Shown: positions 1,169 through 13,971 of the stretch, in pieces | How the letters are laid out: each line of letters starts with the position of its first letter | Numbering within the stretch: position 1 is the first letter of the stretch | Source: a virus | DNA: 64,000 nucleotides | Strand: one strand, 5' to 3' | IMG/VR virus record: IMGVR_UViG_3300047320_000285 | Location: 62,001 to 126,000 of that record | Notes under the pieces: generated by a model | The model's input: only the letters and a program-made list of their open reading frames with translations | The model's database searches: none | What the model was told of the DNA's origin: nothing | Made by a program: the position numbers and the translations under genes

Positions 1169-2032
1169 ATGACGACGATTGCATGGGACGGTAAGGTACT
1201 GGCAGTAGACAGCCGTAGTTCTTCCCCAGAGACTCGGCAAGAAGCTACCAGTGATCCCAAACGCACTCGCATCTGCTTTCATTGCGAACGTCCAGCATGG
1301 ACGGGTAGTGATGATTCGCAGAAGCTCGTGATTCTGCCTAAGGTCACATGGCGTGGTGAACGGATTCTCGCGGCAGCGGGCACCGGTATGGCACGCGACT
1401 GTGATCGGATCCGGCACGTAATGCAACGCCCGCCCGAAGGCCAGACGGAGTTCGAAAAGATCTGGGAAAGCTACAGTTCGTTGGCACCGCGTAAAATTGC
1501 TGGGATGCAACCATTTGGTGCCATCTCTGCACACTTCGTGGTGGTGACGGAAACACGTCTATGGGTGCTAGAGTTTGAAGGCAACTCGCTCAGTAGTTAT
1601 CTGGAACCGCGCGATGTCATGTTTGCCAAAGGCTCGGGTCGGGATGCTGCGATGTTGGCAATGACGATCATGGGGGCAACTGCCGCCAATGCGGTATGGG
1701 CAGCTCGGGCGATCGACCCGGCGACTGGGGGTCCAGTCAAGTGGGTCGATACCACCGAACAATTGGTGGAGGGCAAAATGACTCGGTCGCTGGAGCATGA
1801 AGAAGCACCGCTGAGTCGCGAAGAAGCGGCGGCGTATGTGCGCAGTGGTTTTACCGTTCGTCCGGAGAAACCTGAGCTGGTCGGCATCCACGAATCGGCG
1901 CCTTCGAAAGAAGAACCGCTGACCGCAGAGGTTGCGAGTCAGATTGCCGAACAGGCACGTAGTAATGGCAAACCGGCTGTCAAGAAAGTTGCCGTCAAGA
2001 AAACCCCTAGCAGGACTACAACCAAGAAATAA
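1169..2032 (+). CDS. Ntn-hydrolase (proteasome beta/HslV/Anbu-like) protein
   Basis: The start at 1169 is preferred because AAGGAG lies just upstream; an in-frame ATG at 1109 has none. After Met removal the mature N-terminus would be TTIAWDGKVLAVDSR, which fits the Thr-first Ntn-hydrolase fold (catalytic Thr1 with an Asp near position 13-17). A later segment (ILAAAGTGMARDCDRI) resembles the core strand and helix of proteasome-like subunits. At 287 residues it is longer than HslV. The Lys-rich tail (VKKVAVKKT) is an addition that could bind nucleic acid. First gene of an operon running to 4114, behind an early-type promoter box. A peptidase or amidase role is inferred from the fold only; substrate unknown. 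Confidence 0.6.
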   Translation: MTTIAWDGKVLAVDSRSSSPETRQEATSDPKRTRICFHCERPAWTGSDDSQKLVILPKVTWRGERILAAAGTGMARDCDRIRHVMQRPPEGQTEFEKIWESYSSLAPRKIAGMQPFGAISAHFVVVTETRLWVLEFEGNSLSSYLEPRDVMFAKGSGRDAAMLAMTIMGATAANAVWAARAIDPATGGPVKWVDTTEQLVEGKMTRSLEHEEAPLSREEAAAYVRSGFTVRPEKPELVGIHESAPSKEEPLTAEVASQIAEQARSNGKPAVKKVAVKKTPSRTTTKK

Positions 2033-2042
2033 GGAGTAGGTC

Positions 2043-2687
2043 GTGAGCGAGTTCATGTATTGTCGTGAGTGTAACACCGAGCGTACCGGTCCGGAGATCT
2101 GCTGGAAGTGCAATTCGGCGCTGGAGGAAGTCAAGCACGATCACTGGCATCCGCTGAATATGCCACCGCTTGAGAGAGTACGTGAACTCGCCAAGGAATG
2201 CGGCTATGCATGTGCAATGCATGGTTCGCAGGAACGCGATCTGGATGTGGTGTTGGTGGCGTGGACCGACGAGGCACTGACCCGTACCTATGCCGAAGTC
2301 ATGCACTACATCGCCGCCGGATTGATCGCAGAGAACGGTCTGCCTGCTAGGGTGGTGGAGATTGAAGCCAAGCCACTCGGTCGACATGCCTGTACCATTC
2401 AGATGAACGGCTGGTACAAAGCCATCGATCTGTCGATGGCGGCGTTTATCGCACCCAAGCTGACCAATGAGCAGGCACTGGATGTGCTCGAAGGTGCCGA
2501 CTACATCGATGGCAAGCCGAACTCCCGTGAACCTGACTGGCACACGTTTGGTAGCGATACGGTAGCGATCAGTCTGGATGGTCGCTTTACCCGCGAAGAG
2601 TTGTTGGCCGTCCTGCATTTCCATCCCGACAACCTCCCGGTCGGAACCACCATCGGCTGGCCTGAACCGAAGGAAAAGACAGCATGA
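2043..2687 (+). CDS. zinc-ribbon protein with HFHP module
   Basis: GTG start 10 bases after the previous stop, preceded by AAGGAG. The N-terminus has two CxxC pairs (CREC and CWKC, residues 6-23), a small zinc ribbon. The C-terminal part (residues about 165-200) carries FGSD...LDG..T..EL.A..HFHP, which recurs in the next gene, so the two share a domain. Role unknown; zinc-mediated nucleic-acid or protein contact is possible. Confidence 0.75.
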   Translation: MSEFMYCRECNTERTGPEICWKCNSALEEVKHDHWHPLNMPPLERVRELAKECGYACAMHGSQERDLDVVLVAWTDEALTRTYAEVMHYIAAGLIAENGLPARVVEIEAKPLGRHACTIQMNGWYKAIDLSMAAFIAPKLTNEQALDVLEGADYIDGKPNSREPDWHTFGSDTVAISLDGRFTREELLAVLHFHPDNLPVGTTIGWPEPKEKTA

Positions 2688-3100
2688 AAGAACGATTTGA
2701 TAGTCCGTTCGAGTCGGCCGCAGAAGCACAGGAAGTCATCGACACCAGTCGTCAACTGCAATCTGGCCATTGGATTAATTGGCAACAGTTCGGTTCGGAC
2801 GAGAAACAGTATTTGACACTAGATGGCAACTACACGTTCGCTGAGCTGATGGCCTTGATTCACTTTCATCCGGAGCTGATCAAGCGACGCGCAGAAGCGC
2901 AGCCTGAAGCCAAGAGCGACGAAGTGCGCGTGCTCGAATTGGCGACTCAGAAGCTGACTGAGATGCTGAACGAACTGCTCGAGGACTGTACCGAAGGCCA
3001 GCTTGTCGACGCACCATCGCGCAAGCTTTACATGAAGGCTCGTGCTTGCCTGCCTGCCGGTTACTCGATGTCGTTGACTAAAAAAGAGGGTAAGCCGTAA
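2684..3100 (+). CDS. hypothetical protein sharing HFHP module
   Basis: Starts in a 4-base ATGA overlap with the zinc-ribbon gene. Residues 33-65 carry the same FGSD...LDG..T..EL..L.HFHP module as its neighbour, without the zinc ribbon. The remainder is charged and helical (residues 85-120). Probably a duplicated module, with the two proteins made in fixed ratio through translational coupling. No known family recognised. Confidence 0.75.
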   Translation: MKERFDSPFESAAEAQEVIDTSRQLQSGHWINWQQFGSDEKQYLTLDGNYTFAELMALIHFHPELIKRRAEAQPEAKSDEVRVLELATQKLTEMLNELLEDCTEGQLVDAPSRKLYMKARACLPAGYSMSLTKKEGKP

Positions 3101-3372
3101 TGGCCCGCACCTCTTTTGCTCGCGCCCACCCTACTGCAATAGGGACAACGAAGCCGTTCATACGCGCAACGTTTCGCGATGCGGACGGTAACGTCTACGA
3201 CCCCAACACGTATATCTACGGTAACGAACGACGCCGTCTGAAAGCACTGCGCAGTACAGCGAGCCGTCGTGTTAAAGTGACCCTGCGGCGTTTGGGTAAG
3301 CAAGGTTTGCATGAAGCAGACGTGTTGCGCGCCGCGCTGGAGCTTAAACAACGGTTGCGTAACAAAGCCTGA
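3100..3372 (+). CDS. small basic protein, 90 aa
   Basis: The ATG shares one base with the preceding TAA (TAATG). The product is strongly basic, with an Arg/Lys-rich second half (RRRLKALRSTASRRVKVTLRRL), suggesting nucleic-acid binding. A short beta-like segment (FRDADGNVYDPNTYIYG) precedes it. No family recognised. Confidence 0.7.
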   Translation: MARTSFARAHPTAIGTTKPFIRATFRDADGNVYDPNTYIYGNERRRLKALRSTASRRVKVTLRRLGKQGLHEADVLRAALELKQRLRNKA

Positions 3373-4215: not shown

Positions 4216-4737
4216 ATGATCGCCCCGAAACGATACCAATATCCAAAAGACCGCAAGCGCGCCGTCTACAGTCGTTGGATGACCATCAACCGACGCTGTG
4301 AAGACCCGCGTTCGTACGACTATCCCTACTACGGCGCACAAGGTTACAGCGTGGCTTGGGAATGGTCACGCCAGAATCCGGACGGCTATACCAACTTCGC
4401 GACATGGCTGGAGGCTCAGTTGAAGTTGCAAACCAACCCGCAGTGTCGCAATGTGACGCTCAAGCCCGGGGAGAAAGTCTACAGCGCGAATAACTGCACG
4501 TTGGCGACCCGTCAAGAATTGGTACAGGACGGAGGGCGCACGACCCTGACGCAGGCCAACGTGATTGCCTTGCGTGCTTTGAAAAAGCAGGAACCCAAGA
4601 TCCGTTTAACGGACATCATCGAACGACTGGGCCTTGATGTCTCGGTGCCGGTTGTCTCCAATGCTTTACGTGGTATTACCTTTCAGAACCTAGACCATCT
4701 GGAAGCCCCTTATCTGCCCGAGGAAGTACAACAATGA
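4216..4737 (+). CDS. HNH/AP2-like phage DNA-binding or nuclease-like protein
   Basis: The N-terminal half follows a pattern common in phage HNH/AP2-like proteins: RW.TINRRCEDP..YDYPYYGAQGYSV..EW, then an F..W segment and Y..NNCTLATRQE. Typical members carry RiD.G.Y.peNCRWaT here; this copy keeps NNC.LATR but lacks the catalytic-looking RxD, so it may bind rather than cut DNA. The C-terminal part (residues 105-150) looks like a helix-turn-helix. No good Shine-Dalgarno is visible before the ATG, which is unusual here. First gene after a terminator, overlapping the next gene by 4 bases. Confidence 0.6.
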   Translation: MIAPKRYQYPKDRKRAVYSRWMTINRRCEDPRSYDYPYYGAQGYSVAWEWSRQNPDGYTNFATWLEAQLKLQTNPQCRNVTLKPGEKVYSANNCTLATRQELVQDGGRTTLTQANVIALRALKKQEPKIRLTDIIERLGLDVSVPVVSNALRGITFQNLDHLEAPYLPEEVQQ

Positions 4738-6904: not shown

Positions 6905-6933
6905 CGGGGCTGTGGCATAGAAAATCTCGGCGA

Positions 6934-6941
6934 TATATTCT
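6934..6941 (+). promoter_or_regulatory. early-promoter-like box (TATATTCT variant)
   Basis: CGATATATTCTAATC matches six of eight positions of TATATTAC. It lies in the 148-base gap before the trimeric autotransporter gene. Less certain than the exact copies. Confidence 0.35.
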
Positions 6942-7052
6942 AATCGTGAGCTGCAACCTAAACAGCTCCTTTCTTTCGTGGGATTGACAGGATTACGGGG
7001 GTTCTGTCTCTTACTGACCATCCCCGATTATACTAGGAATAAGAATACAATC

Positions 7053-8930
7053 ATGAAGAAGAATATCATCGCAGTGGCAATTTTGGCTTCACTTGCTGTA
7101 TCGTCGGCATACGCAAATTGCGGTAATGGTGGTAGCAACGGGAATGGTTGCGGGGGCGAACAAGGACCGGCAGGCCCGCAAGGTCCCGCCGGTCCTCAGG
7201 GTCCGCAAGGTGTTGCGGGTCAGAACGGCAAGGACGGCGCGTCGGTTACTGGTGTCAGCATCAATGGCACTTCAGTCACGACAACGCTCTCCAATGGTTC
7301 GTCGGTGCAAGGTACGGTCACGGGGGTGGCTACGACTGCACAGCTGAACAGCACGAATAGCAACGTCGCGACGAACACGTCGAACATCACGACGCTGCAA
7401 GGTCAGGTTAGCCAGCAAGGCGGTGCAATCGCCGGTCTGCAGGTTAGTAGCGCCACGCACCAAGAAGTCGCTGACACGGCAGCCGGCACGCTGGCTGCCG
7501 CCAACGCCCACACGGATGCATCAGTGGGTGCAGAAGCGGCGCGCGCGAAGGGCGCCGAAGCAGGTCTGCAGTCGCAGATCAACGGCGTGAGCGGTACCGC
7601 CAACCAAGCGCTGGCGAATTCGAAGGACGCGCAGGCAACTGCGGGTCAAGCGAAGTCGATCGCGCAAGGCGCCGCGGCCACGGCTAACCAAGCCGAAGGC
7701 ATTGCAGTCGGTGCTGCTATCACAGCGACGGGTGCAGCGATCGTTGCCGGTCATGCAGAAGGCGTTGCTGAAAGTGCGGCCGCACAAGCCAAGTCGGCTA
7801 CGGCTACGGCGAACCATGCTGACTCAGTCGCCGGTCAAGCACTCGCAGCGGCGAAGGATGCCGACACGGATGCCGATGCGGCAGGCAAGGCAGCCGCACA
7901 CGCCCAAGGCACGGCAGACACAGCGCTGGCTTCGTCGGCACAAAACGCCAAGGACATCAAGTCCGAAGCGCAAGCCCGTGCAGCAGGCGATGCCGCCACG
8001 CTGAAGTCGGCCAATAGCTACACGGATTCGGCCGTGGCGAACGGGGTGTCGCAAGCAGAATCATACGCTGATGCTGGCGATGCCAAGACGCTGAATTCTG
8101 CGAACAAGCATGCGGACCAAGCCGCTGCGGCGGCCTACGTCGGTGCAGTCGCGACCTCGGCAGCTTACACGGATGCGACGGCGTCGAAGACGTTGAAGTC
8201 GGCGAATTCGTACACCGACAAAGCAGTTGGTGCCGAGTCTAGCCGCGCCCAATCGGCCGAAGGTCAACTGCAGTCCAACATCAATTCGGAATCGACTCGC
8301 GCGCAGACGGCTGAAGCTGGTCTGAACACGAAGATCGACAACGAAACGACGCGGGCGACGACAGCCGAAGCCGGGCTGCAAACCCAGATCAACGGGAACA
8401 GCCAGTCGATCACGCAAATCCAGTCGAACATGAACAAGGGCCAGATGGGTTCGGGCGCGCAAGTGCAATCGAACAACTCGGTGGCACTCGGTGCAGGTTC
8501 GGTGGCTGATCGTGACAACACGGTGTCGGTGGGTGCAGCAGGTGCCGAGCGTCAAGTGACGAACGTGGCAGCAGGTACGGCCGACACCGATGCGGTGAAC
8601 GTCGCGCAAGCTCGCTCGTACGCCCAGACGTCGTACCAGCAATCGACTGCTTACACGGATCAACGTGTGAACGCGCTGCAGAACTCGTTCGACAGCTTCA
8701 AGAAGGACACCTACGGTGGTCTGGCTTCGGTGCTGGCAATCGCGGGTCTGCCGCAACCGATCCAGAACGGCAAGTCGATGATCTCGGCGGCTGTCTCGAA
8801 CTACCACGGCGAGCAAGGTATTGCTGTCGGTATCTCAACCGTCCAAGGCAACTTCGTGATCAAGGCCGGTGTCTCCACGTCCACGCGCGGTGATGTCGGC
8901 GCAGTCGCTTCGGCAGGCTACCAGTTCTAA
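7053..8930 (+). CDS. YadA-like trimeric autotransporter with collagen-like repeats
   Basis: A 625-residue surface protein. Residues 1-21 are a classic Sec signal peptide with an AYA cleavage site. Residues 38-64 are collagen-like G-x-y triplets ([12 protein letters not shown]). A long Ala-rich coiled-coil stalk follows (about 130-460; repeats of [13 protein letters not shown]). Near residue 476 is a YadA-head-like SVALGAGS...VSVGA...[19 protein letters not shown], and residues 553-625 are a YadA-type membrane anchor ([15 protein letters not shown]...[10 protein letters not shown]...GDVGA) ending in Phe, the usual terminal signal for outer-membrane insertion. The start at 7053 is chosen because it gives the signal peptide. 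The anchor is close to Burkholderia/Ralstonia adhesins, suggesting capture from a host. A cell-surface role during infection (superinfection exclusion, aggregation) is inferred; a virion fibre is less likely given the export signal. Confidence 0.88.
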
Positions 8931-8946
8931 GGGTAGCTTGAGCGGG

Positions 8947-8968
8947 AAAGGGGCCTTCGGGTCCCTTT
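8947..8968 (+). terminator. strong intrinsic terminator
   Basis: Nine-base stem AAAGGGGCC/GGTCCCTTT with TTCG loop and a T-rich tract to 8977. It is the most host-like rho-independent terminator in the window, directly after the autotransporter gene. Confidence 0.9.
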
Positions 8969-8997
8969 TCTTTTTTTGTCCTTTCGAAGGAGTCAGG

Positions 8998-9690: not shown

Positions 9691-10248
9691 ATGCGGCGTA
9701 TCGGCACCGTAACCGCGTTCTACAGTTACAAAGACTTCCTGAGTAATCACTACCGCTGTCGCTTTACGGTTCATGGCGTGAGCTTTAACTGTCTCGAGCA
9801 ATTCATCATGTACTGCAAAGCCATGTGCTTTGGGGACACCGAGATTGCCCGGCAGGTACTGGAAGCGAATCACCCGCAAGACCAGAAGATTCTCGGCCGT
9901 AAGGTGAAGGGTTTCGTGCGGCACCTCTGGTACCAGAAGATCGAGCAATGGTACGTGCAGGGCGTGATTGCGCGCTACGAGCAGAATCCGCATGATCTGA
10001 AGCTGTTGCTCGCGACTGGTGATACGGTACTGGTGGAAGCCGCCAAGAACGACGGGATCTGGGGCGTCTGTATGGATGAAACCGATGACGACATCCAGCA
10101 CGAGTGGAAATGGCGTGGCACCAACCTATGTGGGAAGGGCCAGCAAGCGGCTCGTGAACACTTTAAACGACAAGGAATTACTCATGCGACACATGTTGAT
10201 AGTCGGTTCGGTGCGAGCTATCAAGCTCTTGGTAGTGCCGTTCATTGA
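9691..10248 (+). CDS. NADAR (YbiA/DUF1768-like) ADP-ribose glycosidase
   Basis: The family signature is clear: Y.DFLSNHYRCRFTV.G..F.CLEQFIMYCKAMCFGD (residues 10-47), GR.VKGF...LW (70-81), then ATGD..LVEAAKNDGIWGVCMDE (about 108-132). NADAR proteins act on N-glycosidic bonds of ADP-ribose compounds; some reverse guanine ADP-ribosylation of nucleic acid made by DarT-like toxins. At 185 residues it is of usual family length. In a phage the natural inference is counter-defence against ADP-ribosylating toxins or NAD+-linked immunity; a metabolic role (YbiA-like) is the alternative. Confidence 0.85.
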   Translation: MRRIGTVTAFYSYKDFLSNHYRCRFTVHGVSFNCLEQFIMYCKAMCFGDTEIARQVLEANHPQDQKILGRKVKGFVRHLWYQKIEQWYVQGVIARYEQNPHDLKLLLATGDTVLVEAAKNDGIWGVCMDETDDDIQHEWKWRGTNLCGKGQQAAREHFKRQGITHATHVDSRFGASYQALGSAVH

Positions 10249-11235: not shown

Positions 11236-11559
11236 ATGGAACAACGTAGAAGGCGCCGCAGCAAACCACGCAGTGAGCGCAGTGAACCCGCCGCCAAGAA
11301 GGTGTCGTTTATCCAGCTCATGAGCTGGGAGGCGGAGTTCGCGGCGAGCGGCCGGGAAAAAGTGGAGCAGTATGGCGCAGCTTTCTGCAAGGATTTCGAG
11401 ATTGACGACGCACGACTGATGCAAGCGCCGCCGATTGTGGCGCGACAAATCATCTTCGGTCGTTACGTCACTACGGATACGAGGTATCATCAAAATGCAC
11501 ACCCCGCTGTCGAGGACCTCGCAGAGCTATATCCGGAAACAACGGTGAACGAGTCATGA
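11236..11559 (+). CDS. hypothetical protein with Arg-rich N-terminus
   Basis: AAGGAAAG precedes the ATG. The first 22 residues are almost all basic or polar (EQRRRRRSKPRSER), suggesting nucleic-acid contact; the rest is helical. Four-base overlap with the HNH-type gene. No family recognised. Confidence 0.65.
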   Translation: MEQRRRRRSKPRSERSEPAAKKVSFIQLMSWEAEFAASGREKVEQYGAAFCKDFEIDDARLMQAPPIVARQIIFGRYVTTDTRYHQNAHPAVEDLAELYPETTVNES

Positions 11560-12188
11560 GAGAAGACGATCAACTTGTGAAAGATTGGCGAGCCAAATAC
11601 GCCAGACATCTACGCAATGCAAAAGCGCGCGGCATTGTCAGTAATCTTTCGTTTGAACAGTACATGGCAAAAATCAAGGAAGGAGGAGTAATTCTTCCGG
11701 AGCAAGTTGGTCGTCGCTCCGATCAAATGCAGTTAAGTCGTGTCGGGGACGAAGGTGCGTATGACGTAGATAACTGTCGTTTTATTACCAGTCGTCAAAA
11801 TCATCAAGAAGCTTTTATTAACGGTCGCTGTGACAATGCTTTGTTAAGAACCGCAGAAGCTCGTCGTGGCGCTACTATGGAGACCCATCCTTATTTGGCC
11901 GAGATGGCGAACAAGCTGAGAGGACGGACCAAGGAAACTCACGAACACCTCGCTATTGTCTCAGCTAAAACCGCTGAGAATCAAAGCAAAGACTTTTCCA
12001 TCTGGACTCCAGATGGCATAAATCACGAAGGCAGGGATCTGAAAAGGTTTTGTATAGAACGTAATCTGAATCCTCGTGGTATGAGTCGGGTTTGTCGTGG
12101 AGAAAGAAAACAATACAGGGGGTGGACTGGTCAGTGGCTAGAACCAACTCCTGACTTTTCAGGATTCTTCCATGAACCCGAAATCTAA
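11556..12188 (+). CDS. HNH-type homing-endonuclease-like protein
   Basis: A 210-residue protein paralogous to the one at 45687. Residues 1-85 hold the shared core ending in GAYDVDNCRFITSRQNHQEA, typical of phage HNH/AP2-like nucleases. Residues 115-130 carry a GRTKET linker. The C-terminal FSIWTPDGINHEGRDLKRFC...GMSRVCRGERKQYRGW is a NUMOD-like DNA-binding module seen in intron and free-standing homing nucleases. Its codons are visibly more AT-rich than its neighbours, consistent with recent arrival. The tail TPDFSGFFH resembles the EPDFxCYFH tails elsewhere. Cleavage activity not shown. Confidence 0.72.
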   Translation: MREDDQLVKDWRAKYARHLRNAKARGIVSNLSFEQYMAKIKEGGVILPEQVGRRSDQMQLSRVGDEGAYDVDNCRFITSRQNHQEAFINGRCDNALLRTAEARRGATMETHPYLAEMANKLRGRTKETHEHLAIVSAKTAENQSKDFSIWTPDGINHEGRDLKRFCIERNLNPRGMSRVCRGERKQYRGWTGQWLEPTPDFSGFFHEPEI

Positions 12189-13053: not shown

Positions 13054-13971
13054 ATGTCATTGCAAGATCAATTGGCTGCACTCAATACTTCGGTCGAAGG
13101 AGTGGGCACCGCCATTGCTGCCAAGGATACCGCCTTGGAAAATCAGGTCACCACACTCGGTAACACGGTGAGCAACATCGCGCTGGTGCGCGGATTGTTC
13201 AACGCGCTGCAAGTTGCTGCTACGGGTCTGGACGCGAACGTCAATGTCCAAGCCCAAGAGATGGTGCTCAAGGATGGCGCCGGTCACGTGGTCGTGATTG
13301 CTAACGTGAACGTGACGGCGGCGACCAAAGCCGCTGGTCAGGCAGGCACCGGTGCTAACAGTCTGGACACCGGCAACTTTGCCTCGAATACGTGGTATGC
13401 GTTGTTTGTGGCGTATAACTCGTCGGGTGCGACCGCCTGTGCGTTGTTGTCCCTGAGTGCGACTGCGCCCACGCTACCGGCAGGCTTTACGTTCTACACC
13501 CGGGTGGGCTGGATTCGTACCGACGCCACCGCCAACGCTCGCCCGCTTGCCTTCACGCAAAAGGGTGCGCAAGCTCGCTACAAAGTCACCCCCGGTTCGA
13601 ACGTTGCAGCGATGCCAATTATCGCTTCAGGGGCCGCAGGTGACTGCACGATCCCGACGTGGGCGCCGCTGGACTGGCGACCGTTTGCACCCCCGACGAC
13701 GATTGACTTGACGTTGCTGACGGGTTCGAACGGTAATGCCTGTACGGTGATGGTGGCCCCGAACAACAATTTCGGGGCGTGGAACTCGGTGTCGAACCTG
13801 CCACCAGTGATGCATTCGAACGTGGGCTCGTACCTGTTCACGGACGATAACATCGCAGTGGAGTCCACCAACATCTACTGGGCCTCAAACGCGGGGGCTC
13901 AACCCCCCACGCCGGGGACGTCGGGTAATTCCGGCATTCTCTGCGTGATGGGCTGGACGGATAACATCTAA
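13054..13971 (+). CDS. virion appendage / tail-fibre-like protein
   Basis: A 305-residue, Ala/Thr/Asn/Gly-rich, beta-like protein of the kind found at phage tail tips. Residues 1-20 (MSLQDQLAALN..VEGVGT) match the N-terminus of the minus-strand gene at 35324-35824, pointing to a common attachment module followed by different distal parts. Residues 110-160 (NTWYALFVAYNSS...TFYTRVGWIRTD) resemble a domain common in tail fibre proteins. Transcribed alone between two terminators. Confidence 0.7.
   Translation: MSLQDQLAALNTSVEGVGTAIAAKDTALENQVTTLGNTVSNIALVRGLFNALQVAATGLDANVNVQAQEMVLKDGAGHVVVIANVNVTAATKAAGQAGTGANSLDTGNFASNTWYALFVAYNSSGATACALLSLSATAPTLPAGFTFYTRVGWIRTDATANARPLAFTQKGAQARYKVTPGSNVAAMPIIASGAAGDCTIPTWAPLDWRPFAPPTTIDLTLLTGSNGNACTVMVAPNNNFGAWNSVSNLPPVMHSNVGSYLFTDDNIAVESTNIYWASNAGAQPPTPGTSGNSGILCVMGWTDNI

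Follow-up and report, generated by a model that had tools for sequence, protein, structure and literature searches.

A predicted trimeric autotransporter adhesin behind an early-type promoter in phiKZ-like jumbo phages

Homologues of the bacterial adhesin YadA were reported in 2013 in phages phiEco32, My1 and P-HM2 and in the Salmonella phages SP-058 and SP-076, as possible virulence genes (PMC3728262), and T4-like mutants escaping abortive infection have lost a region that contains one YadA-like ORF (PMC5449768). The YadA-anchor proteins of lytic phages include the "agglutinating adhesin" of SP-058/SP-076 and phiEco32 as well as proteins of Pantoea phage AAM22 and Vibrio phage RYC, and a structural protein of cyanophage S-SZBM1 carrying a YadA-like domain was found in virions by mass spectrometry (PMC9146016). 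In BFVD, 18 matches were obtained at E <= 0.001, several of them annotated as YadA anchors of lytic phages. The existence of YadA-like phage genes is therefore not new, and the statement of the first-pass annotation that they are not usual phage genes needs to be corrected in view of these earlier reports and of the many viral YadA anchors held in BFVD. As far as our literature searches show, the jumbo-phage family, the early-type promoter, the replacement of the passenger and the mosaic recombination described below had not been reported; no work linking phage autotransporters to superinfection exclusion was encountered in these searches either.

The gene analyzed here is located in a window of 64,000 nucleotides that corresponds to bases 62001-126000 of the 253,740-bp virus record IMGVR_UViG_3300047320_000285. 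It extends from an ATG to a TAA at 7053-8930 on the plus strand, like all the features of its transcription unit given below, and profile matches and a fold model identify its 625-aa product as a trimeric autotransporter adhesin. In a heuristic scan of the 64 kb, no other ORF combined a start at ATG, a motif resembling an RBS and a classical signal, and the codon bias of the gene is strong (second lowest Nc among 23 genes tested). The Sec signal peptide, recognized from the sequence by this heuristic scan, covers residues 1-21 (AYA before the cut, N after it; 7053-7115) and equivalent signals are present in all relatives. The mature N terminus, which is the predicted outer tip, carries a two-cysteine motif (Cys23 and Cys33, 7116-7151) that all eight phiKZ-like copies retain, though not with the same spacing, and that is absent in the homologue L003. 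It is followed by 11 consecutive Gly-X-Y triplets (residues 32-64, 7146-7244); when residues 22-121 were shuffled 20,000 times, runs reached at most eight. The Pfam Collagen score of the product (15.7 bits) is under the cut-off of 27.2, and "collagen-like" seems a fair label for this sequence, though the run is short. A small beta segment (residues 65-88) separates it from an Ala-rich helical stalk, presumed to be a coiled coil (residues ~95-461, 7335-8435), that is proposed from the sequence and from a full-length model of low confidence apart from its broad topology.

The C-terminal part of the protein includes a single YadA-like head repeat and neck (residues 475-520, 8475-8612), with profile matches including 2yo0, 4usx, 1p9h and 3s6l; sequence-profile matches of the adhesin also include SadA, BpaC, YadA and AtaA. 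The membrane anchor (residues 535-625, 8655-8927) consists of a helix and four strands and ends in GYQF, hence in a C-terminal Phe. It matches Pfam YadA_anchor (PF03895) over residues 567-625 with E=1.5e-14 and 54.2 bits for a cut-off of 22.7. The AF2 single-chain model of this region has block pLDDT values of 91-97, and a Foldseek search with it retrieved Hia first (2gr8, TMt 0.93, rmsd 0.8 A), then 2gr7, 3emo, 9vnj and 2lme. By every testable feature of the sequence and model, the product of 7053-8930 is a complete type Vc trimeric autotransporter, whose trimer and 12-strand barrel are predicted; the signal, collagen-like triplets, stalk, YadA head-like motif and Phe-ending anchor of the complete outer-membrane adhesin announced by the first-pass annotation were each found. 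The protein resembles Hia and YadA (PDB 2GR7, 2GR8, 3EMO, 2LME) in its anchor fold, connecting helix, C-terminal aromatic residue, signal peptide and neck, but differs from them in being encoded by a lytic-type jumbo phage, in being preceded by a phage promoter and in having a passenger made of a collagen-like tip and an Ala-rich stalk. Likewise, the proteins of SP-058 (which has 44 collagen triplets), AAM22 and RYC share its signal-like N terminus and YadA anchor, but the YadA-anchor proteins of the lytic phages named above are shorter, belong to other phage groups and have an anchor of another subtype, with W or F as its last residue.

The record that carries this gene encodes a phiKZ-type multisubunit RNA polymerase (RNAP) beta subunit (phrog_3148, full 1424 positions, G000:190312-194715), and the same RNAP type is present in Burkholderia glumae phage FLC9 (321,833 bp) and in the contigs L012 (313 kb) and L014 (245 kb). 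As judged from these matches, the record represents a jumbo phage of the phiKZ-like group that encodes an RNA polymerase of the virion type. Two chimallin candidates of the right length, the only ones looked at, had no PDB match by sequence. The window and FLC9 are largely collinear at the protein level, with identities mostly of 22-73%, and the adhesin gene occupies the same place in both, its FLC9 counterpart being gp240 (BDD79759.1, annotated as hypothetical). This orthologous protein has the same class of promoter and is 77% identical over aligned residues but lacks the collagen run and has a longer stalk. In FLC9, L012 and the window alike, the adhesin gene is part of a series of small genes and has a NADAR gene close by. 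Homologues were found in FLC9, in six further phiKZ-like jumbo phages and in one unrelated jumbo phage, L003 (217 kb), whose homologue is the ninth, which has no match to the phiKZ-type RNAP and whose tested topoisomerase-like protein is closest to that of Achromobacter phage Motura. The first five genomes searched each gave exactly one anchor. A further scan, which targeted the RNAP and was blind to the adhesin, gave 16 phiKZ-like contigs >200 kb, of which six encode an anchor: five of the type of the window adhesin and one of another type (L145). Since the gene is distributed so patchily (6/16 related contigs), the adhesin is not essential.

Several neighbouring or related loci deserve mention in their own right. 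The NADAR-domain gene (window 9691-10248, Pfam 2.9e-35) is located two genes 3' of the adhesin gene, an adjacency kept in FLC9 and L012, and possibly encodes a counter-defence enzyme. The window also carries an HNH/restriction-endonuclease-like gene (4216-4737) and an ORF of unusual composition (11556-12188, GC3 0.39, Nc 60) that was perhaps recently acquired. A 305-aa protein encoded at 13054-13971, with weak tail-fibre PHROG matches, is 73% identical in FLC9 and 73% in L014, where the gene of its counterpart adjoins the adhesin gene. L014 (JARLJL010000015.1, 245,075 bp) is filed in a Sulfuriferula MAG and carries both the phiKZ-type RNAP and the adhesin; a jumbo phage that was placed in a bacterial bin is the most likely explanation, and this match (81%) was discarded as a bacterial homologue because the contig has the jumbo-phage RNAP. 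In L145, a more distant phiKZ-like contig (G024, 294,599 bp), a head-rich YadA-type adhesin ending in W is encoded at 1178-3313 and is probably a separate acquisition.

Upstream of the adhesin gene, a phiKZ-type early promoter element was identified at 6912-6950, with an A/T-rich upstream part GTGGCATAGAAAATCTCGGCGA, a core TATATTCT at 6934-6941 and then AATC-GTGAG up to 6950. The element is found before the adhesin gene in all eight phiKZ-like phages with constant spacing, and its core ends 60-130 nt upstream of the ATG. This core is TATATAAC in six copies and TATATTCT in the window phage and L014, the latter differing at two bases from the TATATWAC of the relatives; the downstream part is GTGAG, except for CCGAG in L141 and ATGAG in L144. 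Because four of the eight copies come from a later scan blind to both adhesin and promoter, this result is close to an independent test. The element is absent before the adhesins of L003 and of L145, which is of a different type. In the 300 kb of FLC9 examined, TATATWAC occurs at 13 sites compared to about 2.4 expected (both strands), and all 13 share one strand, on which a CDS starts 36-116 nt further downstream. The consensus around them, roughly gattgaaaa..atttcagacc-TATATTAC-nnnn-GTGAG, agrees with the published promoters of 201phi2-1, OBP, N1M2 and phiKZ (PMC7058600). The features of the published type, i.e., an A/T-rich TATATTAC-type core, A/T and TTTCAR upstream and GTG downstream, are present here, with the two departures in the window core. 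Where phages encode such RNAPs, it is the virion RNAP that transcribes from early promoters of this type (PMC7598289). The early timing of adhesin expression, as inferred from this element, is thus well supported.

A tendency to form stem-loops was also observed just 3' of early-type promoters (window 1054, 6934, 47959 and 54739 and the TATATWAC sites of FLC9), with differing sequences: the mean folding z is -1.9 for 23 sequences compared to -0.25 for random genome windows. Early transcripts may therefore share a 5' hairpin.

Directly 3' of the adhesin gene, an intrinsic terminator consists of the hairpin GGGAAAGGGGCCTTCGGGTCCCTTTTCT with a T run (8936-8979), so that the gene seems to form a single-gene unit. 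The first-pass annotation had seen there a strong, host-like terminator. An intrinsic terminator is indeed present, but its qualification as host-like is unneeded since such terminators are common in phiKZ-like phages, with 56 predicted in N1M2 (PMC7058600). Hairpins resembling terminators follow the adhesin gene in most relatives, none being detected by the scan of this region in L014 and only a doubtful one in L145; as these hairpins differ in sequence, a host-derived terminator as a sign of gene transfer was ruled out.

The signal peptide and the well-formed anchor indicate an outer-membrane location of the adhesin, and the early promoter would place it in the membrane long before assembly. 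Together, sequence and model suggest that the adhesin is probably synthesized early and targeted to the outer membrane of the infected cell rather than incorporated into virions, in keeping with the host-envelope product that the first-pass annotation had proposed. This early envelope role is also supported by the virion RNAP subunit of phiKZ type that these genomes encode, by the terminator and strong codon bias of the adhesin gene and by its shared location in FLC9, L012 and the window. Some observations count against it: matches to PHROGs of virion structure (237-1004) and of tail-fibre type (13054-13971) are located within 7 kb, the window promoter core is two bases off TATATWAC, the distribution of the gene is patchy and the cyanophage protein with a YadA domain is found in virions (PMC9146016). 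The last of these would also fit a tail or head fibre that merely resembles an autotransporter, as would the collagen-like and coiled-coil parts commonly found in tail fibres, the weak PHROG tail-fibre matches of the adhesin itself and the resemblance of part of its stalk to Vibrio phage tail fibres. However, a virion assembled in the cytoplasm would have no use for a Sec signal or for a complete anchor ending in Phe, the gene is a monocistronic unit with an early-type promoter, and the Pfam and PHROG profile searches found no tail-attachment domain in the adhesin. A virion fibre is thus improbable, whereas an adhesin expressed early and acting in the host envelope is likely, the early timing, the surface display and the trimerisation being what we infer from the features above.

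The first-pass annotation had also likened the anchor to Burkholderiales adhesins. Among cellular proteins, Burkholderia adhesins are its closest relatives. In the tree of anchors, four phiKZ-like phages form a clade (100/98), which L003 joins weakly (86/47), and Burkholderia autotransporters are the sister group of the phage anchors (95/79). According to this tree, the anchor is derived from Burkholderia adhesins. The best bacterial match reaches 59% identity: in the 1451-aa protein of B. aenigmatica (L015), this value applies to the last head/neck and the anchor over 165 aa. The Burkholderia proteins differ from the window adhesin in their large passenger with multiple heads and in lacking a comparable collagen tip; the three that were read are 1451-1813 aa long with many head repeats and, therefore, the phage form appears to be stripped down, with its passenger replaced. 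That the phages took the entire gene from bacteria recently was ruled out by the distinct phage clade and the 59% identity of the best bacterial match.

Within the phages, the adhesin does not simply follow the backbone. FLC9 and L012 share 81% identity for the RNAP but 67% for the adhesin, whereas the 77% between the adhesins of the window and FLC9 contrasts with 58% for their RNAPs. These conflicting identities rule out a strict descent of the adhesin with the phage backbone. Furthermore, a tract of about 350 bp (8271-8621, residues ~407-523) is ~95% identical to FLC9 at the DNA level, and some segments of the gene outside this tract are closest to L012. Jumbo phages therefore appear to recombine, exchanging pieces of the adhesin gene. 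The tip varies in length: at the extremes, FLC9 has no long collagen run, whereas L014 has 55 triplets. The dN/dS ratio of the adhesin is roughly 0.2, an approximate value as synonymous sites are near saturation outside the ~350-bp tract, and suggests purifying selection across phages whose RNAPs are only 52-58% identical. Such selection, together with a variable tip and mosaic exchange, is as expected of a surface-exposed protein. It also argues against a host adhesin acquired by chance or for the benefit of the host, with no role in infection, which the Burkholderia ancestry of the anchor and the patchy distribution among phiKZ-like contigs could suggest. The phage-type promoter at every phiKZ-like copy, the place conserved in FLC9 and L012, the well-supported separation of the phage clade from bacteria and the signal-anchor plan shared by unrelated lytic phages all make this possibility very improbable.

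The following sequence of events can be proposed. The RNA polymerase injected with the virion would probably read the phage early promoter soon after infection, giving a single-gene adhesin transcript; Sec would export the product and the host BAM complex would insert the trimer with its 12-strand barrel. The long helical stalk would then be displayed at the surface, its tip being a short collagen-like rod, possibly clamped by disulphides, and the surface would be so remodelled that other phages, including siblings, could not adsorb, resulting in superinfection exclusion or shielding. We hold this explanation as a whole tentatively, with a probability somewhat below even; exclusion specifically is a guessed function whose probability lies a little lower still. 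A surface change directed against later phages is our best guess as the most economical function, with clumping as its close rival. Proteins of the YadA type are classically known for autoagglutination, and an early surface fibre could attach infected cells to surfaces or neighbouring cells; they would then burst among susceptible kin, or would be kept in a protected niche. The architecture of the adhesin and its early-type promoter fit such aggregation or biofilm formation equally well, and FLC9 infects a host group that lives in association with plants and soil. However, the complex head domains that are adhesive in many bacterial relatives are missing, only one head repeat remains compared to many in Burkholderia, and the phage copy in L144 has none at all, so that this role seems slightly less likely than exclusion.

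A broader proposal is that lytic phages generally use early outer-membrane fibres as a weapon: phages of unrelated lineages (phiKZ-like and Motura-like phages, the Schitoviridae phage SP-058, and the Pantoea and Vibrio phages) would each have taken the anchor from a bacterial trimeric autotransporter, swapped its passenger for a collagen or coiled-coil rod and used it to remodel the surface of the infected cell and exclude competitors, the fibre genes of jumbo phages recombining into mosaics. This generalization is speculative and we consider it somewhat unlikely. As regards phage YadA homologues, which have been regarded since 2013 as possible virulence genes, a complete and conserved autotransporter behind an apparent early promoter turns this notion into a testable statement; it should also be emphasized that a YadA-like phage gene need not mean a virulence gene or a tail fibre. 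FLC9 gp240 offers a defined gene in a cultured phage for addressing superinfection exclusion or cell aggregation. Overall, phiKZ-like jumbo phages are known above all for protecting their DNA within the host cell, and they may in addition remodel its exterior at an early stage of infection.
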